64,000 nucleotides of DNA from Phenylobacterium deserti (GTDB taxonomy: Bacteria > Pseudomonadota > Alphaproteobacteria > Caulobacterales > Caulobacteraceae): the NCBI GenBank assembly GCA_943332615.1, contig CALQQB010000001.1:1-64000 (forward strand), read 5' to 3'. Shown here one piece after another: positions 12,411 to 23,187 of the stretch. Under the pieces are notes generated by a model. The model did no database searches, was not told the origin of the DNA, and was given only the letters and a program-made list of their open reading frames with translations. The position numbers were made by a program, and so were the translations under genes. Position 1 is the first letter of the stretch, and every line of letters starts with the position of its first letter.

Positions 12411-13343
12411 TCAGGTCTGCACCCAGCCCTCGTACATCGGGGCCACTTGGCTGTTCCAGGGGTGAATGGCCTTCTGCGCGAACCGCCACTCGCCCTCCCG
12501 CCGCTCTAGGAGGTCGTCGTAGTAACCCATGTTGACCACCGTCGCCGGCGAACCCACCGTCCAGGTCTCCACCTTCCAGTAGGAGAACGTCCGCCAGCCC
12601 TTGCCCTCGCGGCGGTAAAGGATGGGGAAGATCCGGTGCTGTCGGCCCCCGAAGCCCGGACGGCCGGAGGCGGCGGCGAGGAAGGTCCGTATCCCCGCCG
12701 GGGCCGTCACCTTGCCGACGCTGCCGCTTTCGAACACCGCGCCGGGCGCGAAAGCGGCGGTCATGGCCGCGACATCGGCGGTGTCGAGCGCCGTGGCGTA
12801 GGTCATCATCAGCGCTTCCATGGCCGCGCGCTCGTCGGAGGTCGGCGTGTCGGGACCCTGGAGGCCGCCCGGGACCGTGCGCAGCAGGGGCTGATCGCCC
12901 AGCGGCGGCGCGGGCCTGTCGCTGCGGATGTGGTGCAATACCTTGGACTTGATCTTCCAGCTCACGCCATTGCGCACCACTTCGTCGACGTAGGCGCCCA
13001 TGGAGCCCATCTGCACCGGCTTGCCGACTGGCGCGCTCAGCGCCTGGTAGTAGGACGTGACCCTGTAGCCGTCGCCGGAGGCCTGGAAGAACATCGGCCG
13101 GATGTGATGCTGCCGGCCCCGGAACAGGGGGTTCTTCATAGCGTTGGCCGCGAACCGATAGATGCCGTCTCGCCCCGTGAAGCGCTCGCCCGCGGCGTTG
13201 GTCACCAGCCCGTCCTCGGTGAAGCAGGAGGCGACCCCCTCGGCGTGGCCGCGGTCCATGCTGTAGCCGTAGAACAGCAGGCAGTCCTGGATCGCCAGGC
13301 GGTCCGCCAGGCCGATGGTGTCGCGCGGGATGGGTTTGGGCAT
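12411..13343 (-). CDS. Tandem SnoaL/NTF2-like domain protein
   Basis: A 310-residue protein built from two SnoaL-like (NTF2-fold) domains. Domain 1 (about residues 8-150) contains IQDCLLFYGYSMDRGH and RQHHIRPMFF. Domain 2 (about 170-305) contains ALMMTYATALDTADV and RQHRIFPILY. The repeat RQHxIxP in both halves shows internal duplication. Single-domain relatives include dehydratases, isomerases and bile-acid 7-alpha-dehydratase BaiE. The start ATG 13343 has GGGGGA upstream; the longer ORF to 13499 is antisense to the next gene. Enzyme role is inferred only. Confidence 0.75.
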   Translation of the reverse strand: MPKPIPRDTIGLADRLAIQDCLLFYGYSMDRGHAEGVASCFTEDGLVTNAAGERFTGRDGIYRFAANAMKNPLFRGRQHHIRPMFFQASGDGYRVTSYYQALSAPVGKPVQMGSMGAYVDEVVRNGVSWKIKSKVLHHIRSDRPAPPLGDQPLLRTVPGGLQGPDTPTSDERAAMEALMMTYATALDTADVAAMTAAFAPGAVFESGSVGKVTAPAGIRTFLAAASGRPGFGGRQHRIFPILYRREGKGWRTFSYWKVETWTVGSPATVVNMGYYDDLLERREGEWRFAQKAIHPWNSQVAPMYEGWVQT

Positions 13344-13354
13344 AGCGGTCCCCC

Positions 13355-13873
13355 TCAGAGCTTGGCGACGGAAACGGTGGTGCTGTCCCAGCGCGTGATG
13401 ACCTTCTCGGCGATGCGCAGGTGCTGGCCGTCGCGCACGAAGGTGTCGGTGAACAGCCCCAGCTGCTGCATCGCCGGCGCCGGCGCGCCGGCCGTCCAAC
13501 TCAGCCGCGACCAGTAAGTGGTGGCGACGAAGGCCGAGCCCTTGGCCACCAGCTTGTTCAGCTGGATGTAGTGCGAACCGCCGGGCCCGATCGCCCGGAT
13601 CGCCGAGCGCAGGAATGCCGGCGCGCCGCCGTCAGCGGGCCGCCACAGCCGTCCCTCGATGTCGCGCACCGTCGCGTCGCGGCTGAACGCCCCGGCCGCC
13701 ATGGCCATGTCAGCATTGTCGAGACCCCACACGAAGCGGCTCTGGGTGTCCTGGATCGCCGCGCGAACCTCTGCGCTAGGCCCTTCCGCCGCGCGGGCCG
13801 GGCCCGCCGCTCCGGCCAACGCCGCGCCGAGCGGCAGAGCCGCGGACAGTTCCAATATCTGACGGCGATCCAT
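13355..13873 (-). CDS. Exported SnoaL/NTF2-like protein
   Basis: A 172-residue protein with an N-terminal twin-arginine-like leader (MDRRQILELSAALPLGAAL...ARAA), followed by one NTF2-like domain. The domain begins VRAAIQDTQSRFVWGLDNAD and includes DATVRDIEGRLW. It lies 11 bp upstream of the tandem SnoaL gene on the same strand, and the two are probably cotranscribed. It diverges from an exported alpha/beta hydrolase; the 77-bp gap holds the candidate operator at 13927-13947. Function is unknown; periplasmic location is predicted from the leader. Confidence 0.72.
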   Translation of the reverse strand: MDRRQILELSAALPLGAALAGAAGPARAAEGPSAEVRAAIQDTQSRFVWGLDNADMAMAAGAFSRDATVRDIEGRLWRPADGGAPAFLRSAIRAIGPGGSHYIQLNKLVAKGSAFVATTYWSRLSWTAGAPAPAMQQLGLFTDTFVRDGQHLRIAEKVITRWDSTTVSVAKL

Positions 13874-13926
13874 GGCGCTCTCCGGCCTTGACCCGCGCTC
13901 TTCGGCGCGCCCCTATTGCGCGAAAA

Positions 13927-13947
13927 GTACGAATGTACGAACTATAG
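13927..13947 (-). promoter_or_regulatory. Shared 21-22 bp candidate operator, copy B
   Basis: Read on the minus strand the site is CTATAGTTCGTACATTCGTA, matching copy A at 6001-6022 except for two substitutions and a one-base length difference. It sits between the divergent NTF2-like and alpha/beta hydrolase genes, where it could control both. Confidence 0.4.
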
Positions 13948-13950
13948 TCA

Positions 13951-15027
13951 ATGGCGAACGGCGGGGGGATTGTGGGCGGATCAAGCTGGGTCGCGACAGC
14001 GGCCGCTCTTATCGTCGCAATGGGCTCGGCCGCGTCCGCCGCCGCAGAGCCGTTGGTGATACGCGAGCAGGGCAGTTTCTTTGTTGCCGGCGCGCCGGTT
14101 CGCCTCGAAAATCCCAGCGCGGACATCGCTGGTCCGCCCGGCCGCGCGGCGCCGAACACGCCCGGCGCCTGGACCGCGGGCCAAGCCTATGTGAGCTATC
14201 AGATTCCCGACCGGCGCAGGCTTATCCAAGGCCGGCCGGCGCCGGCCGTCATCCTGCTCCACGGCTGCTGTCTGACGGGAAAGACCTGGGAGACCACGCC
14301 TGACGGCCGCGAAGGCTGGGCCACCTATTTCGTGCGCCAGGGCTTTCCGGTCTACGTCGTCGATCAGGTGGGCCGAGGCCGCTCCGGTTTCAACCCTGCA
14401 AAGCTGAATGATGCGCGCATGAGCGGGGGCCGTTCGATCGCGCCCCCGGCCCGCGCCAAGACCGAGGAGTCCACCTGGGAAACCTTCCGGATCGGCCCGC
14501 GCCCAGGGCAGCTTTATCCCGGAGCGAAGTTTCCGATTGAGGGCAAGGATCAGTTCTTCGCCCAGATCGTCCCTGACATGAACGACTGGGCCGATGGAGA
14601 CCCCTATCGGCCCAGCGTGGAGGCGATGGTCGCGCTGGCCGCCCGGATCGGGCCGGCGATCCTCGTCGTCCACTCCCAGTCCAGCCGCATGGGCTGGAGG
14701 ATCGTCGAAGCGCGCCCGGACAGGGTCCTGGCGCTCATCCAGATCGAGGGCGACTGCAGCCCCGACGCCGCCCAATTGGCGAGCGTCTGGCGACGGGTTC
14801 CGGTGATTTCGGTCTGGGGCGGCTACATCACCCCGGAGAACTGGGGCGATCGTGAGGACGCCTGTCGGCGAACGATGAGCGACATCGCGCGGGCAGGGGG
14901 CTCTGGAACCTTCCTGAAGCTAGACGAGGTGGGCTTGCCGGGCCACGGCCACATGCTGATGCAGGATCACGGGAACCTGGACATCGCCGACAGACTGATC
15001 GCCTGGATCCGGCGCGTGCTTGGTTGA
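13951..15027 (+). CDS. Exported alpha/beta hydrolase (esterase-like)
   Basis: A 358-residue alpha/beta hydrolase with an N-terminal signal peptide ending near GSAASAAAEP. The oxyanion-hole region is ILLHGCCLTGKTW, followed by YVVDQVGRGRSG. The nucleophile region is VVHSQSSRMGW, where HSQS replaces the usual GxSxG. The C-terminal LPGHGHMLMQDHGN supplies the likely catalytic His. ATG 13951 is the ORF-track start. GTG 13972 follows a much better ribosome-binding sequence (GGCGGGGGGATT) and may be the real start, giving 351 residues. The substrate is unknown. Confidence 0.8.
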   Translation: MANGGGIVGGSSWVATAAALIVAMGSAASAAAEPLVIREQGSFFVAGAPVRLENPSADIAGPPGRAAPNTPGAWTAGQAYVSYQIPDRRRLIQGRPAPAVILLHGCCLTGKTWETTPDGREGWATYFVRQGFPVYVVDQVGRGRSGFNPAKLNDARMSGGRSIAPPARAKTEESTWETFRIGPRPGQLYPGAKFPIEGKDQFFAQIVPDMNDWADGDPYRPSVEAMVALAARIGPAILVVHSQSSRMGWRIVEARPDRVLALIQIEGDCSPDAAQLASVWRRVPVISVWGGYITPENWGDREDACRRTMSDIARAGGSGTFLKLDEVGLPGHGHMLMQDHGNLDIADRLIAWIRRVLG

Positions 15028-15359: not shown

Positions 15360-15878
15360 TCAGACCGTCAGCGCCTCAACGACCGAGTCCAGCACGGCGC
15401 GGGCCTTGGCGCGCATCTCGTCGTCGGTTGCGTCCTGGATCGGGTGATCGACCAGCACGTAGCGCGCGCCCTCCATGCCCAGCGCCTTGCGTTGAACTTC
15501 GGCGGCCTCGGCGAACTCGCTGGAGGCGATGGAAACGGCGGGAAGACCCTGGATCTCAAACCATACGGTGTCGTGCAGACTGCACGTCGTGCATGATCCT
15601 CAATCGGCGAGGGCTTCCACCAGGACGCTGCATTCCGACTTGATCCGCAGCCGCAGGTCCGAGGGGCAGGGCTTGGCGAAGGTCGGCTTGGCGTAGCGCC
15701 TGATCTCGACCTTGGGGTAGCGGGCCGCCAGCAGGCTCTGCAGCTCGTCCAGCAGGACGTTGCCGCGCGGCTTGCTGATGTCCAGCAGGCCGATCACGCC
15801 CGAGATATCGCCGGTCCGCGCCGTGATCTGTCGCGCCACCGGCACGCGCTCGTCGGTGGGATCCAGAATTGTCGTCAT
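15360..15878 (-). CDS. UGSC-family selenoprotein (TGA at 15600-15602 read as Sec)
   Basis: The ORF track stops this gene at TGA 15600-15602, but the frame continues for 79 more sense codons to a second TGA at 15360-15362. The junction reads VEALAD-U-GSCTTCSLHDTV, the signature UGSC motif of a known bacterial selenoprotein family. The full product is 172 residues with Sec at position 93. The continuation (IQGLPAVSIASSEFAEAA) is family-like and codon-normal. The start is ATG 15878 with GGAGAA upstream. A SECIS-like hairpin follows the Sec codon and the selC and selB genes lie directly upstream. The family function is not established; the U-GSC motif next to a CxxC thioredoxin-type partner suggests a redox role. 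It should not be annotated as two fragments or as a pseudogene. Confidence 0.93.
15572..15602 (-). promoter_or_regulatory. SECIS-like element of the UGSC gene
   Basis: Downstream of TGA come 13 bases, then CGTGCAGTCTGCACG, which folds as a 5-bp stem CGTGC/GCACG with loop AGTCT. The apical sequence closely resembles the E. coli fdhF SECIS tip (TTGCAGGTCTGCACC), including the loop GU needed for SelB binding, and the UGA-to-stem distance (11 there) is similar. Confidence 0.82.
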
Positions 15879-15909
15879 CGACGTTCTCCGAACTTCTGCG
15901 GCGACGCTA

Positions 15910-17496
15910 TCAGCATTCGATTTTCCTGGAAACGACGGCTGAGCCTGCCGCCCCGGTGACCCAGCCATGGAAGGCGGCGGAGAACTTCCCGGCCTCGGAA
16001 CCGGCGACGACGATGTGGATAAACTTGTCGCTGGCGAACTTCGGGGCCGGCGCCGCCAGTTGCGCCTCGGTCATCTTGGCGGCGGCCGCCAGGGGAATTC
16101 CGGCGCCGGAGACCTCATTGGAGACCATTTCGCGCAATGGTCGCGACGTCACCGCCTGGATCCGCTCGCGCAGGCGGACTTTGGCGTAGTCGCCCTCGCT
16201 GGTCAGCGTCTTGACGTGTTCGGGGCAGACCACCAGCAAGGCATCGACCGGCATCCGGTGGATCTTCGACAGGAACATGCCCTCCAGGCCCAGGCCCAGC
16301 GTGCCGGCGATCTGGTCGGGCTTGCGGGAATCCTGATCGACGATCTGCACAGGGCCGCTGGTCATGGCGAAGGCGGTTACCACCGAGTCCTCGCGCTGGA
16401 AGCCGCGCTCCACATGCAGGGGGTCCCAGGGCGAGCCTTCCTCATACTCGGCGAAGCACATGGTGAACTTCATCGGACTCGAGAGGGTTGAACGGTCCAC
16501 GCCACCGGGGCGGGCGCCGCCCAGGTTGCGCACCACCAGGCGCAGGGCGCGGCCGATGGTGGCGTTTGCGCGGTTGCCCGTGCCCAGGGCGCCCAGCTTC
16601 ATGTTCATGCCGATCCGCGCCCGGATCGGGCCATTGATCACCAGGACCGGCGAGGCGCCCATGGTGGTGGCGGTCACGCCATGCATGTTGAACGCGTCGG
16701 TGCAGACGGCCTCCACGGCGGCGATCACCACGGGCAGATATTCGGGCCGGCAGCCGGCCATCACCGCGTTGATCGCGATCTTCTCGACCGTCGCCGGGGC
16801 CATGTTGGGGGGCACCACCGCCACGATATCCTGGGCATTGCGCGTCGTGCCGGACAGCATGCGCAGCACCCGCTCCGGGGTCGGCGGCACCAGCGGCAGG
16901 CCGTCGCTGAAGCCCTGGTCGAACATGAACTCGTCGATGTCGTCAGCCGGCGCGATCTCGATCCGCCGCGCCCGGATCGGGCTGCCCTCGGCCTCGGCCA
17001 GCAGCCGGTCGTGGATGTCGGGGTCCAGGTGCTTCGAGCCGCAGCCTGGCCGCCAGTCCGGCAGCGCCGACCAGTGGACCGCCGCGGGCGGCGCGGCCAG
17101 ATCGGCGGCGATCTGCCGGGCGAGCGCCTCCCATTCCTGGCGCACGAATCCTTCCAGCGGCGCTCGCGGTGCGCCGTCGGCTCCGACCCAAAAGACCGCC
17201 GGCACGATCTCGAAGCCCCACGCCAGCGAGGTCCTGAGGGCGCTGTCATCCAGGATCGGCAGGGTCAGGCCGTGGCGGTCCTTGAGGATCGCATTGCCGT
17301 CGGCCGTCTGTCCCAGCATCCAGATGTTGGCGACATCGCCCCAGGCTTGATGGAACGCCTCCAGCACCGGCGCGGTCAGATTGCAGGTGTTGCAGTCCTC
17401 CTTCACGAAACAGATCAGGCTGGGCCGTCCCGTGGGGAACTGCCGGGTCTCGCCCGCCATGTCGCGGAGTGAGAAGGCCAACGGGGTCGCGCTCAT
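15910..17496 (-). CDS. Thioredoxin-domain fusion protein, UGSC partner
   Basis: A 528-residue protein lying between selC and the UGSC gene; the UGSC start is only 31 bp after its stop. Residues 1-130 look like a TlpA/AhpC-type thioredoxin fold with the redox motif C35-NT-C38 (FVKEDCNTCNL) and the cis-Pro-like segment FEIVPAVFWV. Residues about 180-528 form a large domain that I do not recognise by function, with MFDQGFSDGLPLVPPTPERV, NAVMAGCRPEYLPVVIAAVEA and GIPLAAAAKMTEAQL. No signal peptide is seen, so it is cytoplasmic. Co-location suggests it is the reductant or partner of the selenoprotein. It ends in Cys followed by tandem TGA-TAG. Confidence 0.8.
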   Translation of the reverse strand: MSATPLAFSLRDMAGETRQFPTGRPSLICFVKEDCNTCNLTAPVLEAFHQAWGDVANIWMLGQTADGNAILKDRHGLTLPILDDSALRTSLAWGFEIVPAVFWVGADGAPRAPLEGFVRQEWEALARQIAADLAAPPAAVHWSALPDWRPGCGSKHLDPDIHDRLLAEAEGSPIRARRIEIAPADDIDEFMFDQGFSDGLPLVPPTPERVLRMLSGTTRNAQDIVAVVPPNMAPATVEKIAINAVMAGCRPEYLPVVIAAVEAVCTDAFNMHGVTATTMGASPVLVINGPIRARIGMNMKLGALGTGNRANATIGRALRLVVRNLGGARPGGVDRSTLSSPMKFTMCFAEYEEGSPWDPLHVERGFQREDSVVTAFAMTSGPVQIVDQDSRKPDQIAGTLGLGLEGMFLSKIHRMPVDALLVVCPEHVKTLTSEGDYAKVRLRERIQAVTSRPLREMVSNEVSGAGIPLAAAAKMTEAQLAAPAPKFASDKFIHIVVAGSEAGKFSAAFHGWVTGAAGSAVVSRKIEC

Positions 17497-17544: not shown

Positions 17545-17639
17545 TGGCGGAGGTGGATGGGAATCGAACCCACCACACGCCTTTGGGACGTGTCACTGGT
17601 TTTGAAGACCAGGGAAGCCACCAGACTCCAGTCACCTCC
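17545..17639 (-). tRNA. selC: tRNA-Sec (anticodon TCA)
   Basis: Read on the minus strand it begins GGAGGTGACTGGAG and ends CACCTCCG with encoded CCA, 95 nt in all. The anticodon arm is CTGGT-CTTCAAA-ACCAG with anticodon TCA, which decodes UGA. The acceptor 5' and 3' strands pair over 7 bp, with an A-C mismatch at the eighth position typical for tRNA-Sec. The T arm GTGGG-TTCGATT-CCCAT is intact. The long variable arm is ACACG-tcccaaagg-CGTGT, as expected of tRNA-Sec. It lies between selB and the thioredoxin-fusion gene on the same strand and is probably excised from their common transcript. Confidence 0.94.
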
Positions 17640-17685: not shown

Positions 17686-19596
17686 TTATGCGTCCACTAC
17701 CCGCCGAATGTCGCTCTCGCGGACCGTGGCGCCGCGGGCGTCCAGTGCCTCCAGCACGGGCACGATGAATTTCCGGGACGTCCCCAGCGCCGCGCGCGCC
17801 TCGCCGGTGGTGAACGCGGCCGGCGACGGGAAGGTCCGGCGCAGGGCATCGAGCGCGGCGTCGAGCGCGTCCACGTGGAAGGTCAGGGTCTGGCGGAGCG
17901 CGTGATTGCGCAGCGATATCAGGCGTCCAGAGGCGATCAGCAGGCTCACCAGCACCGCGTCGCCGGTGTCGGCGCCGACCAGTGCGCCGGCGTCGGGCGG
18001 CGTCACCCCGCCCTCGCGATACGCCGCCTCGATCTGGCCAAGCCGGGCCAGCGCGGCGGGCGACAGCGCCGCGAACGGATCGTAGCCGGGCAGCGAAACC
18101 TGCCCACCCTCCAGACGGATCTCTCCGGCGGCGGCGAGGCGCTTCTCAACATGGGCCACGAGATCGCTTCGGGCCGATCGCGCGAGGTGGCTCCGGATCG
18201 GGCTCAGCGACACCGATGGCCGGGCGGGCGCCTGACGATGGGCCTCGGCGAGCCGCTCCAGATAGGCCTGCCCTAGGTCGGTGAGCGCGGTGCGCGTAGC
18301 CATCAGGTCGTCGTCCAGGGTATCAAAGGTTCCGCTCAGGTGATTGCGGACCTCGGAGACAGACTGCCGTGACAGTCGCGCGGCCTCGGCGAGCGACAGG
18401 GCGCCACCGTCGCGCAGTTCCAACTGGGCGGCGATCGGCCCCAAGTCGCCCGCGAGAACCGCGTCCAGCAGGGCGCACCGCTGCTCGATCCGACCGCGCA
18501 GCGGTATCGCCGCAGGATCCAGCACCACGACGCCCCCGATCGTCTCGGCAGGAGATGGCCGACGCAGGATGCCGCGCTGCCCGGCGTATGCGATCACGGG
18601 CGCCGAGAACCGCAACTGCGCTAGGCCACGCTCGCCGGGCGCGATGACATTCGCGCCGATGATGCGCACCTTGGCGATGTCCTGCCGGGCGCCCCACATC
18701 ACGCGCACCTCGTCCGAAGAATTCAGCGGGCGGGCGCTCTGCGGCGAGATCGCCAAGTCGACATCCACCAGCAGGCTGCGGTCATAGGCGCCCGGCGTGC
18801 AAAGGACGTCGCCGGGTCGGACCTCGTCCGTGGAGACGCCGCGCAAGCCCACCGCGACTCGACCACCGGGCCGGGCGATCTCGGGGGTCTTGCCGTGGAC
18901 CTGCAGGGATCGAATGCTGACCCTTCGCCCCGACGGCTCGAGCACGGCCTCCTGGCCTGCCGTCAGGCTCCCGCCCTGCAGCGTGCCCGTGCCGACGGCG
19001 CCGGCGCCGGCGACGCTGAAGATCCGATCTAGTGGCAGGTAGGCGCCCGGCAGCCGGTCGGGCGCCGGACTTCGGGCCGCGAGGGCCCGCAATTCGCCCG
19101 TCAACGCCTCCAGCCCGGCCCCGGTGACCGACGAACATGGCACGACAGGCTCGCCTGCCAGACAGGTGCCGGCGAGGTCGGCGGCAATCTGCTCCAGCAC
19201 CGCCGGCCAGGCGGCCTCCGGTAGCAGGTCCGATTTGGTGACCGCCACGATGCCGCTCCGAAGGCCCAGGAGGCCGGCGATCCGCAGATGCTCCCGCGTC
19301 TGCCGGGCGAACCCCTCGGCGGCCGACACGACCAGCAAGGCGGCGCGCGCGCCAGTGGCGCCCATCACCATGGCCCGGATGAAATCCTCGTGGCCCGGCG
19401 CATCGATGAAGTCGACGCCGCCCGCCATATCCTCCCGCCAGGCGAACCCCAGGGTGATCGAAAGCCCTCGCGCGATCTCTTCCTTGAGCCGGTCGGTCTC
19501 GATGCCGGTCAGGGCGCGGACCAGCGCGGTCTTGCCGTGATTGACATGGCCGATCACCGCGAGGCTGAGGGGCCCCTGGGCCCGCGCGTTGGTCAC
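17686..19596 (-). CDS. selB: Selenocysteine-specific elongation factor SelB
   Basis: A 636-residue SelB, the GTPase that carries Sec-tRNA to UGA codons marked by SECIS hairpins. The GTP-binding motifs are GHVNHGKT (G1), DAPGHEDF (G3) and TKSDLL (G4). EF-Tu-like domains II and III follow, then about 230 C-terminal residues matching the SelB winged-helix repeats that bind the hairpin (for example SPIRSHLARSARSDLV and the final TSRKFIVPVLEALD). Length is close to the 614 residues of E. coli SelB. The start is GTG 19596. It is directly upstream of selC and diverges from selA across 185 bp. Confidence 0.96.
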   Translation of the reverse strand: MTNARAQGPLSLAVIGHVNHGKTALVRALTGIETDRLKEEIARGLSITLGFAWREDMAGGVDFIDAPGHEDFIRAMVMGATGARAALLVVSAAEGFARQTREHLRIAGLLGLRSGIVAVTKSDLLPEAAWPAVLEQIAADLAGTCLAGEPVVPCSSVTGAGLEALTGELRALAARSPAPDRLPGAYLPLDRIFSVAGAGAVGTGTLQGGSLTAGQEAVLEPSGRRVSIRSLQVHGKTPEIARPGGRVAVGLRGVSTDEVRPGDVLCTPGAYDRSLLVDVDLAISPQSARPLNSSDEVRVMWGARQDIAKVRIIGANVIAPGERGLAQLRFSAPVIAYAGQRGILRRPSPAETIGGVVVLDPAAIPLRGRIEQRCALLDAVLAGDLGPIAAQLELRDGGALSLAEAARLSRQSVSEVRNHLSGTFDTLDDDLMATRTALTDLGQAYLERLAEAHRQAPARPSVSLSPIRSHLARSARSDLVAHVEKRLAAAGEIRLEGGQVSLPGYDPFAALSPAALARLGQIEAAYREGGVTPPDAGALVGADTGDAVLVSLLIASGRLISLRNHALRQTLTFHVDALDAALDALRRTFPSPAAFTTGEARAALGTSRKFIVPVLEALDARGATVRESDIRRVVDA

Positions 19597-19781: not shown

Positions 19782-21131
19782 GTGGGCACGATCTGTGACG
19801 ATCCCGCCGCCCGGCCGCTGAACGCGCGGTTCGGGACCGTCGCCGTGACCGGGGCGTTGCGGACCGTGCTGGCTGAGGCGAGGAGGCGGCTTTCGGTCGA
19901 TCCGCTCGCCATTCCGTCGGTCGCCGATCTGCTGGATGAGGTCGGGCGTCGGCTGGCCGATGCGGAGCGCGAGACCCTGTTCCCCGTGATCAACGCCACC
20001 GGCGTGGTCATCCACACCAATCTCGGGCGGGCCCCGTTGGCCCCGGAGGCGGTCTCCGCGATGGCGGCGGCTGCGGGCTACGGCAATCTCGAGCTGAACC
20101 TGGAGACAGGCCGTCGCGCGTCGCGCCAGGACCATCTCGACGCGCTGGTGGCGGAGGTCTCCGGCGCCGAGGCCGGGCTTGCGGTCAACAATTGCGCCGG
20201 CGCCGTGCTGCTGGCGTTGGCCGCGGTCGCGGAGGGCGCGCCAGTCATAGTGTCCCGTGGCGAGCTGGTTGAGATCGGCGGCGGGTTCCGGGTGCCGGAT
20301 GTGGTGGCGCAGAGCGGGTCGGCTCTGGTCGAGGTGGGCGCAACCAACCGCACCCACCTGCGGGATTATGAGCAGGCTCTGCGCGATCACCCCGATGCCC
20401 GCGTGATCCTGCGTACCCATCCCAGCAACTTCCGCATGACCGGATTCACCAGCGCCCCGGCCCTGGATACGCTGGTCCACTTCGCTCATGCCTACAGCCT
20501 GCTGCTGGTCGAAGACCTGGGCGGCGGGGCGCTGATCGACCTGTCGCTCTACGGGATCGCCGACGAACCGATGGTGCAGGCCAGCCTCGCCGCCGGGGTC
20601 GATCTGGTGCTGTTCAGCGGCGACAAGCTGCTGGGAGGGCCGCAGGCCGGGATCGCGGCCGGCCGACGCGATCTGATCGACCGATTGGCGGGTCATCCGC
20701 TGGCCCGGGCGCTGAGACTGGACAAGCTGTCCGTCGCGGCGCTGGCCGCCACGCTGCGTCTCTATCGCCCGCCCGCCGATCCGACCCAGCGGGTGCCGGT
20801 CCTGCGGATGCTGACCCAGCCGGCTGCGGTCGTGGCGGCCCGGGCCGAAGCGTTGCAGGCTCGGATCGCCAGTATCCCGTCGCTTGAGGCCCGGTTGCAG
20901 GACACTCTCGGCTATGCCGGCGGCGGCGCCATGCCCATGCATGCGCTGCCCGGCGTCGCAATCGCCCTGCGCAGCGTCCGGTTCAGCGCGGAAGACCTGG
21001 CCCTGCGCCTGCGCACCGGCGCGACGCGTGTGCTGGGTCGAATCGAGCGTGACCTCGTCCTGCTCGACCTGCGCACCGTCACCGACGACGAGCTTCCGGC
21101 CCTCGCGAAGGCGATCCGGGCCGCCGCCTGA
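19782..21131 (+). CDS. selA: L-seryl-tRNA(Sec) selenium transferase SelA
   Basis: A SelA of at least 449 residues, the PLP enzyme that converts Ser-tRNA(Sec) to Sec-tRNA using selenophosphate. Diagnostic motifs are INATGVVIHTNLGRAPL, the substrate segment LVEIGGGFRVPDV and the PLP-lysine site LFSGDKLLGGPQAGI. The annotated GTG start cuts the family motif LPSVDxLL: the in-frame codons just upstream read RRRLPA before V, and the frame is open back to 19641. No ATG, GTG or TTG occurs in that stretch, so a rare start codon is possible. selD, the selenophosphate synthetase gene, is not in this window. Confidence 0.95.
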   Translation: MGTICDDPAARPLNARFGTVAVTGALRTVLAEARRRLSVDPLAIPSVADLLDEVGRRLADAERETLFPVINATGVVIHTNLGRAPLAPEAVSAMAAAAGYGNLELNLETGRRASRQDHLDALVAEVSGAEAGLAVNNCAGAVLLALAAVAEGAPVIVSRGELVEIGGGFRVPDVVAQSGSALVEVGATNRTHLRDYEQALRDHPDARVILRTHPSNFRMTGFTSAPALDTLVHFAHAYSLLLVEDLGGGALIDLSLYGIADEPMVQASLAAGVDLVLFSGDKLLGGPQAGIAAGRRDLIDRLAGHPLARALRLDKLSVAALAATLRLYRPPADPTQRVPVLRMLTQPAAVVAARAEALQARIASIPSLEARLQDTLGYAGGGAMPMHALPGVAIALRSVRFSAEDLALRLRTGATRVLGRIERDLVLLDLRTVTDDELPALAKAIRAAA

Positions 21132-21758: not shown

Positions 21759-21776
21759 TTTTGTAAAATTGCGAAC
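21759..21776 (+). promoter_or_regulatory. Candidate autoregulatory site, RamB-like
   Basis: TTTTGTAAAATTGCGAAC overlaps the TTG start of the XRE regulator. It resembles the TTTGCAAA-type half sites bound by RamB-family regulators, the family to which the gene belongs. Proposed from family knowledge and position only. Confidence 0.3.
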
Positions 21777-23187
21777 ACGCTACAAGCTGTTCGTCGGGCC
21801 CACGGTCCGCACGCTGCGGGAGCAGCACGGCTGGCGGCTCGAGGCCTGCGCGCGACGCCTCGGCATCTCGGTGAGCTACCTGTCGCAGATTGAAGCCAAC
21901 CAGCGGCCGGTGACCGATCGCGTGTTGATGGCCCTGGTCCAGACCTTCCACACGCCGATCGAGACCTTTGAGGTCGATGGCAGCCAGCGGCTGATCGCCG
22001 ACCTGCGTGAGGCGGTGGCCGAGAGCGGGGCGGGTGAGGAGCCGGTCCCCTTGAGCGAACTGCGCCAGGCCGCCCTGCAGGCGCCGACCCTGGCCCGCCG
22101 CTTCCTCGACCTGCACCGGGCAAACCACCGCCTGGGCGAGCGGTTGAAACTCACCGAGGAGGCGCTTTCCCTGGACGAGGCGACGACGTCCAGCTCGCTG
22201 CTGCCCTACGAGGAGGTGCGCGACTACTTCCACTTCAAGGACAACTACCTCGACGCCCTGGACCGCGCCGCCGAGGATCTGGCGCGCGAGGTGGGGCTGG
22301 GGTCGCAGCTGCGGGCCGACGCGGTGCTGGAAATGTACCTGCGCGAGCCACTGGGGGTGCGGGCGCGATACGCTCCGCTGGGCGACGTGATGCGCAGGTT
22401 CGATCCGACGACGAACGAACTGTGGCTGAATGCCACCAACCCCATCGCCACCAACGTCTTCCAGATGGCCTATCATGTGGCGGCAGCGGCGCTCTCGGAC
22501 ATCATCGAGCGGGAGCTGGCCAGCGCCCGGTTCAAGAGCCAGGAGGCGGTCGATGTCTGCCGGATCGGGCTGGGCAACTACGCGGCCGGCGCGCTGCTGA
22601 TGCCCTATGGTCGGTTCTCCGCCGCAGCCCGGGAGCTTCGGCACGACGTAGAGCAACTGGCCGCCCTGTTCGGGGTCAGCCTGGAGCAGGTCTGCCACCG
22701 CCTCTCGACGCTGCAGCGGCCGGGCCGCAAGGGCGTGCCGCTCTACTTCGTGCGACTGGATTACGCGGGCAATATCACCAAGCGCCACAGCGCCACGCGG
22801 TTCAGCTTCGCCCGGTTCGGCGGCGCCTGCCCGCTGTGGAACGTGCATGAGGCGGTAGGCGCCCCCGACCGATTCCTGGTGCAGGTGGCTGAGATGCCGG
22901 ACGGCGTGCGGTATCTCTGCATCGCGCGCGCGCTGGTGAAGCGCTCGGAATCCTATCTCACGCCGGACCGCCGCTTCGTGCTGGGCTTCGGCTGCGAGAT
23001 CGGCGACGCCCATGCCCTGGTCTATTCGGAAGGCGTGGACCTGAAGGGCCCGGCGACGCCGATCGGCATCAGCTGCCGCATCTGCGAGCGCGACGACTGC
23101 ACCCAGCGCGCCTTCCCGCCGGTGGACCGGCGACTTACCGTGCCGATCCACGAACGGCGGACCGTGCCGTTTCGGCTTGGCGGCTGA
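21769..23187 (+). CDS. XRE-family short-chain fatty acyl regulator (RamB/ScfR type)
   Basis: A 472-residue DNA-binding regulator. The N-terminal helix-turn-helix is LEACARRLGISVSYLSQIEANQRPVT. An IrrE/peptidase-like middle follows (TNVFQMAYHVAAAAL), and the C-terminal DUF2083 domain carries the conserved cluster CRICERDDC. Relatives regulate glyoxylate, propionate and short-chain acyl-CoA metabolism. TTG 21769 is the only plausible start, because an in-frame TGA lies 15 bp upstream. Its neighbours include a CoA transferase module, consistent with acyl-CoA sensing. Confidence 0.88.
   Translation: MRTRYKLFVGPTVRTLREQHGWRLEACARRLGISVSYLSQIEANQRPVTDRVLMALVQTFHTPIETFEVDGSQRLIADLREAVAESGAGEEPVPLSELRQAALQAPTLARRFLDLHRANHRLGERLKLTEEALSLDEATTSSSLLPYEEVRDYFHFKDNYLDALDRAAEDLAREVGLGSQLRADAVLEMYLREPLGVRARYAPLGDVMRRFDPTTNELWLNATNPIATNVFQMAYHVAAAALSDIIERELASARFKSQEAVDVCRIGLGNYAAGALLMPYGRFSAAARELRHDVEQLAALFGVSLEQVCHRLSTLQRPGRKGVPLYFVRLDYAGNITKRHSATRFSFARFGGACPLWNVHEAVGAPDRFLVQVAEMPDGVRYLCIARALVKRSESYLTPDRRFVLGFGCEIGDAHALVYSEGVDLKGPATPIGISCRICERDDCTQRAFPPVDRRLTVPIHERRTVPFRLGG

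Follow-up and report, generated by a model that had tools for sequence, protein, structure and literature searches.

A thioredoxin-fused partner of the selenoprotein UGSC, likely to form with it a GrdB-like reductase

Next to the gene of the selenoprotein UGSC, Phenylobacterium deserti carries a long gene whose product joins a thioredoxin domain to a much larger second domain. In this study we ask what this large domain (LD) could be, and whether the two neighbouring proteins work together. The window, that is the whole stretch of DNA analysed, is 64,000 nucleotides long, and the fusion gene and its parts lie in it as follows:

15910..17496, minus strand: thioredoxin-LD fusion gene, 528 aa (open reading frame, translation, homologues and model)
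17098..17496, minus strand: thioredoxin (ResA/TlpA-like) domain, residues 1-133 (Foldseek matches in the PDB; CxTC motif and cis-proline P99)
17383..17394, minus strand: redox motif C35-N-T-C38 (from the sequence; kept in relatives)
17041..17043, minus strand: linker cysteine C152, in the motif PGCGS (present in 71/71 fused relatives)
15913..16950, minus strand: LD, residues ~183-528, ~345 aa (from the alignment of relatives; without a library match)

The open reading frame starts with ATG, contains no internal stops and, as the first-pass annotation had stated, ends 31 bp before the start of the UGSC gene (gap 15879-15909). It is a real gene, since its frame is conserved, with 80-88% identity in four other Phenylobacterium genomes and 37-41% in other families.

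Residues 1-130 had been read as a TlpA/AhpC-type thioredoxin with C35-NT-C38, and this reading is borne out. The AlphaFold model of the fusion protein has a pLDDT of 95 and a pTM of 0.90, and the best PDB folds found by Foldseek for the N-terminal domain are ResA, StoA and DsbE-type TlpA (E 2e-8 to 2e-7, TM ~0.8 on the target). The profile of the fusion protein matched thioredoxins among PDB sequences, and Pfam searches with its relatives returned AhpC-TSA (best E 1.3e-11), Redoxin and Thioredoxin; the window protein itself gave no thioredoxin-family match in Pfam at E<=0.1 and did not reach the gathering score. CxTC and the cis-proline P99 are conserved throughout the thioredoxin-fused relatives: among the 71 that have the domain, C35 is found in 69 (the other two have X), T37 in 70 and C38 in 68 (T in two). 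Two Chloroflexi thioredoxin-LD proteins (L050 and L051) have CPTT in place of CxxC. Fold, CxxC and cis-proline are thus common to ResA, TlpA, StoA and residues 1-133, whereas here the domain is fused to the LD and stands in neither a periplasmic cytochrome-c nor a sporulation context. Inspected by eye, the N-terminus (MSATPLAFSLRD) shows no obvious signal peptide.

The rest of the protein, some 350 residues in which no function had been recognised at first, gave no trustworthy match in NCBIfam, Pfam or PHROGs, and these libraries likewise give the family no known function unrelated to UGSC. Foldseek searches of the full fusion model against the PDB and viral models returned lists that were weak or filled with thioredoxins, and no LD fold emerged. 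A Pfam match to MAML1_3_TAD2 (E 0.004 for the window protein, found in 1/81 relatives) is a chance match. Three possible kinships were rejected: with GrdE/PrdA (no PF09338 match in 81 LD proteins; hhalign of the LD against GrdE-like proteins, E 0.8), with GrdB (hhalign E 0.56), and with UGSC itself through duplication (hhalign E 0.45). Within the LD, C249, C347, H272, D387, H427 and K486 are near-invariant, and we would guess that these residues, together with the linker C152, could take part in binding the substrate or in a thiol relay. In the plasmid records examined the LD is annotated as 'hypothetical protein'. Scanning GTDB genomes located 80 named LD loci, in Pseudomonadota, Chloroflexota, Actinomycetota, Acidobacteriota, Myxococcota and others, and the LD is also found in haloarchaea. 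In the LD tree the thioredoxin-fused members make up one large, well-supported part, and the more distant LDs are free-standing.

An LD family living mostly apart from UGSC would have spoken against a joint role, as the first-pass annotation had pointed out, and the opposite was found: UGSC lies within 10 kb of the LD in 116 of 120 LD copies, mostly immediately downstream. Of the four exceptions, one (L096) sits at a contig end and two (L059 and L162) are one gene read twice; UGSC is present elsewhere in the genomes of L096 and L059. In a phylum sample of 399 evenly drawn genomes, where UGSC was detected with PF24696 and the LD with its own profile, the genomes with UGSC and those with the LD were the identical six, with the genes adjacent in 6/6. 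Two of these six are the query and a congener; by hand calculation, the other four would coincide by chance with a probability of about 1/C(397,4), or ~1e-9. Furthermore, a Rokubacteria genome holds seven UGSC and eight LD genes, with an LD beside every UGSC. Thioredoxin-LD and UGSC are thus very likely functional partners. In Rokubacteria AR23 (G431; C111, ~81-113 kb), the genome with the seven UGSC/LD pairs, GrdE-like and Sec-containing GrdB-like genes are also present. At several loci (L010/L165, L055, L057, L105, L180, L182 and L183) one UGSC is accompanied by two different LD genes, which suggests that the two LDs form a heterodimer or that one of them is a second subunit for specificity.

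What kind of enzyme the pair might form can be approached from the UGSC side, where the window holds:

15360..15878, minus strand: UGSC selenoprotein gene, 172 aa (PF24696, NF041046, in-frame TGA)
15600..15602, minus strand: selenocysteine (Sec) codon TGA (U93, codon 93) of U-G-S-C-T-T-C, that is UxxCxxC (from the sequence)
15556..15602, minus strand: possible SECIS hairpin right after the UGA (z -1.2, consistent with a SECIS but alone not significant)

The protein is a clear member of its family (PF24696, E 2.1e-48 and 165.1 bits for a cut-off of 25; NF041046, E 1.7e-50 and 170.8 bits for a cut-off of 125), and its Sec codon lies in the motif where one would expect it; these two models leave the thioredoxin-LD partner uncovered. 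Zhang and Gladyshev 2008 (PMC2398784) described UGSC as fused to a domain 'Unknown_1' and guessed at a thioredoxin-like fold. 'Unknown_1' is probably the LD, so that the fusion part of the present finding may have been seen before. The thioredoxin fold guessed in 2008 for UGSC is not supported: the predicted fold is a flavodoxin-like alpha/beta fold, and is neither that of a peroxiredoxin, nor of a glutathione peroxidase, nor of a thioredoxin. The UGSC profile gave one chance match only among PDB sequences.

Beyond their own family, the commonest matches of UGSC proteins are the B subunits of glycine, sarcosine and betaine reductases, over the Sec motif. Among 64 UGSC proteins scanned, TIGR01917 (GrdB) matched 38 (best E 8e-6), GrdF 37 (1.6e-5) and TIGR01918 17, with scores that stay below the curated cut-offs of the GrdB, GrdF and PrdB models (25 bits against 602 for TIGR01917). 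In hhalign, UGSC aligned with three GrdB-like proteins at E 3.6e-5, Sec to Sec; the control comparisons were the three of the LD given above and that of UGSC with GrdE (E 0.23). The common pattern U-G-[ST]-C-x-x-C is complete in one of these three GrdB-like proteins and partial in the other two. On these profile comparisons, the UxxCxxC site of UGSC and the GrdB/GrdF Sec domain are distant homologues. GrdB- and GrdE-like genes occur in two UGSC-bearing genomes. The PF07355 matches found in proteobacterial genomes, including that of P. deserti, are partial, and no GrdB was seen among the reading frames inspected.

Gene fusions and operons tie the parts together in separate lineages. A single annotated coding sequence spans UGSC and LD in Vibrio europaeus, Sporomusa termitida and Variovorax boronicumulans, and in-frame fusions also occur in Acidovorax T1 and at several Rokubacteria loci. 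Arthrobacter ERGS1:01 has separate, adjacent trxB-trxA-LD-UGSC genes, the free trxB-trxA standing in for the fused thioredoxin domain; Roseovarius THAF8 has LD-UGSC-trxB, and in Variovorax SRS16 trxB lies nearby. Family models confirmed these assignments. A thioredoxin reductase-like gene was found within 6 kb of 11/48 LDs without a fused thioredoxin and of 2/72 with one (Fisher p 7e-4, in a non-random sample). In these arrangements, the links UGSC-LD, thioredoxin-LD and thioredoxin-TrxB have each been seen in lineages of their own. UxxC is kept in nearly all UGSC copies. The fusions of Sporomusa termitida (L173, 6329-8053) and Vibrio europaeus (L174, 6386-8071) read DMGTS at the Sec/Cys motif, with aconitase X and DUF126 adjoining, and are possibly a non-redox branch. 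Methionine stands there at the Sec/Cys position, so the LD/UGSC scaffold can persist without the redox residue; with the CPTT of the two Chloroflexi proteins, this means that electrons cannot take one and the same route throughout the family.

The first-pass annotation had proposed that the two proteins could form one redox enzyme, in which the thioredoxin domain reduces the Sec. Co-occurrence, the UGSC::LD fusions and the replacement of the fused thioredoxin by trxB-trxA support this idea, and the passage of electrons from the thioredoxin domain to the Sec of UGSC is probable. It is strengthened by the distant homology of UGSC to GrdB, as in glycine reductase the electrons come from NADPH by way of thioredoxin reductase and thioredoxin (PMC3091704). 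The earlier idea did not include the kinship with GrdB, the setting in organic-acid catabolism or the subfamilies without a fused thioredoxin or without Sec/Cys. As to that setting, organic-acid catabolism is indicated by the neighbours of stand-alone LD/UGSC genes, among them TRAP and tripartite carboxylate transporters, CoA-transferases, a CoA ester lyase, aconitase X and LysR regulators. The neighbours conserved in the thioredoxin-fused clade, acyl-CoA dehydrogenase (at 16 loci), SDR and AMP ligase, are of too broad a kind to serve as a substrate clue, and no consistent substrate-indicating neighbour was found there.

We therefore favour, as on balance likely, that thioredoxin-LD and UGSC are subunits of one thioredoxin-driven, GrdB-like reductase with a substrate subunit of its own, acting in organic-acid catabolism. 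Co-inheritance, adjacency, fusions, thioredoxin/TrxB gene context and UGSC-GrdB homology are observed; from them we infer a physical complex of the two proteins and the path of the electrons, and the type of bond and the substrate are suggested by analogy. In UGSC, the selenolate that carries out catalysis would be U93 of UxxCxxC, borne on a flavodoxin-like domain that is a homologue of the GrdB Sec domain. The LD would be its obligatory partner and probably the part in which the substrate, most likely a small organic acid, is bound and brought into position. If the chemistry follows that of GrdB/PrdB, the Sec would attack an activated carbon-heteroatom bond and end in a Se-S bond to C96 or C99. 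This bond could then be reduced by the N-terminal thioredoxin domain (C35/C38, perhaps with the linker C152), itself recharged by NADPH-thioredoxin reductase. In the proposed cycle of proline reductase, a selenide-sulphide bond on PrdB is likewise resolved (PMC3091704).

The likeness to the glycine, sarcosine, betaine and D-proline reductases (GrdB/GrdF/GrdH/PrdB with GrdE/PrdA) lies in UxxCxxC and in a Sec subunit paired with a second subunit. It extends to the electron source, thioredoxin reductase and thioredoxin in glycine reductase and, by the genetic evidence of trxB-trxA-LD-UGSC and of the thioredoxin::LD fusion, here as well. In contrast to these systems, no GrdE/PrdA relative and no selenoprotein A gene was seen here, UGSC is devoid of the N-terminal ~330 residues of GrdB, the LD belongs to a different family and the thioredoxin is fused. 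Since the LD has no detectable kinship with GrdE/PrdA, pyruvoyl chemistry cannot be carried over. Moreover, the hosts include alphaproteobacteria, actinobacteria and haloarchaea, whereas those of the Grd/Prd systems are Stickland fermenters.

The alternative that fares best is a thioredoxin-dependent peroxidase or detoxification system, in which a peroxide or electrophile would oxidise the Sec of UGSC, the fused thioredoxin would recycle it and the LD would have a regulatory or docking role. Many Sec proteins are indeed thiol peroxidases, a fused thioredoxin fits an oxidisable Sec, and the thioredoxin-fused clade lies near general genes and not in a single pathway. PMC3091704 also cites a paper on GrdB acting as a peroxidase, which counts on the same side. 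We nevertheless hold this alternative to be unlikely: UGSC has none of the peroxiredoxin, glutathione-peroxidase or thioredoxin folds, the LD is the bigger component and no less conserved, and the substrate-type expansion of paralogues (one genome with seven pairs) and the transporter/CoA-transferase settings suggest catabolism. Furthermore, a peroxidase role is impossible for the forms of Vibrio and Sporomusa that lack Sec/Cys.

Those same forms retain the LD and adjoin aconitase X and DUF126, and this, with the lyases, CoA transferases and similar genes of haloarchaeal and proteobacterial clusters, is what speaks for a non-redox organic-acid isomerase, lyase or hydratase, with U/C93 as nucleophile or base and thioredoxin merely keeping it reduced. 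Such an enzyme is a still less probable account of the family, because UxxC is nearly always retained and thioredoxin or TrxB is linked to the pair repeatedly and in several ways. As a rule, Sec persists where redox chemistry requires it, which also counts against a non-redox role.

The proposed thioredoxin-driven reductase is encoded, in the window, within a set of selenium genes:

17545..17639, minus strand: tRNA-Sec, anticodon tca (ending 48 bp ahead of the fusion gene)
17686..19596, minus strand: selB, Sec elongation factor (TIGR00475 above cut-off)
19782..21131, plus strand, divergent: selA, Sec synthase (TIGR00474, E 3.8e-150)

The order on the minus strand is selB, tRNA-Sec, thioredoxin-LD and UGSC, and tRNA-Sec is placed likewise in about 12 alphaproteobacterial-type loci. 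Six genomes of the genus have selA above cut-off, and five of them carry the LD-UGSC pair, in each case no more than a few kb from selA; the sixth is a 73%-complete assembly. Where a genome of the genus lacks selA, the pair is absent too. A Sec formate dehydrogenase was represented in the P. deserti genome by just a sub-threshold match without an internal stop. In loci of Henriciella, a Hyphomonadaceae and a Rhodobacteraceae, selA, selB, tRNA-Sec, thioredoxin-LD and UGSC stand together with a SelD-domain gene in which SelD is preceded by an oxidoreductase domain. Loci L033 and L036 (also L032 and L034) show a compact selA-selB-tRNA-Sec-thioredoxin-LD-UGSC order followed by a gene with TIGR03169 and SelD; the cassette of L032-L034 and L036 amounts to a near-whole Sec system around one evident client.

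The position of the window pair inside the selA-selB-tRNA-Sec island would suit a neighbourhood without joint function, in which the two genes were merely co-transferred, but this highly improbable explanation is already contradicted by the gene fusions and the unbiased genome sample, which show the same association, and by its persistence with Cys-form UGSC (haloarchaea, Arthrobacter) where sel genes are absent nearby. Since the Cys form is found in haloarchaea and several bacteria (e.g. Arthrobacter), the LD-UGSC link is more than a by-product of selenium islands.

We tentatively suggest that UGSC and LD may represent a new class of enzyme, a two-subunit Sec/Cys-dependent organic-acid reductase that would be partly of GrdB-type descent, with an LD unrelated to the GrdE/PrdA it replaces and with a fused or operon-encoded thioredoxin drive. 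It would be spread over many bacterial phyla and haloarchaea, and accompanied in some alphaproteobacteria by a complete Sec kit (selA, selB, tRNA-Sec and, at some loci, a selD with an N-terminal extension), whose sole evident client it would be. Linking the orphan UGSC to an obligatory partner, to an electron donor and, distantly, to the glycine and proline reductases makes it a testable enzyme.

At one locus, that of Candidatus Blastococcus massiliensis AP3 (L070, 11266-11268), the Sec position of UGSC is encoded by TAG and not TGA; UAG-Sec has been described in Geodermatophilaceae. Elsewhere in the window, a RamB/ScfR-like regulator lies downstream of selA (21769-23187, plus strand; NF038139 E 2e-128, short of the cut-off) and carries ScfRs and Peptidase_M78 domains, and the region beyond UGSC (12411-15027) contains SnoaL/NTF2-like reading frames, recognised by eye, and an alpha/beta hydrolase.
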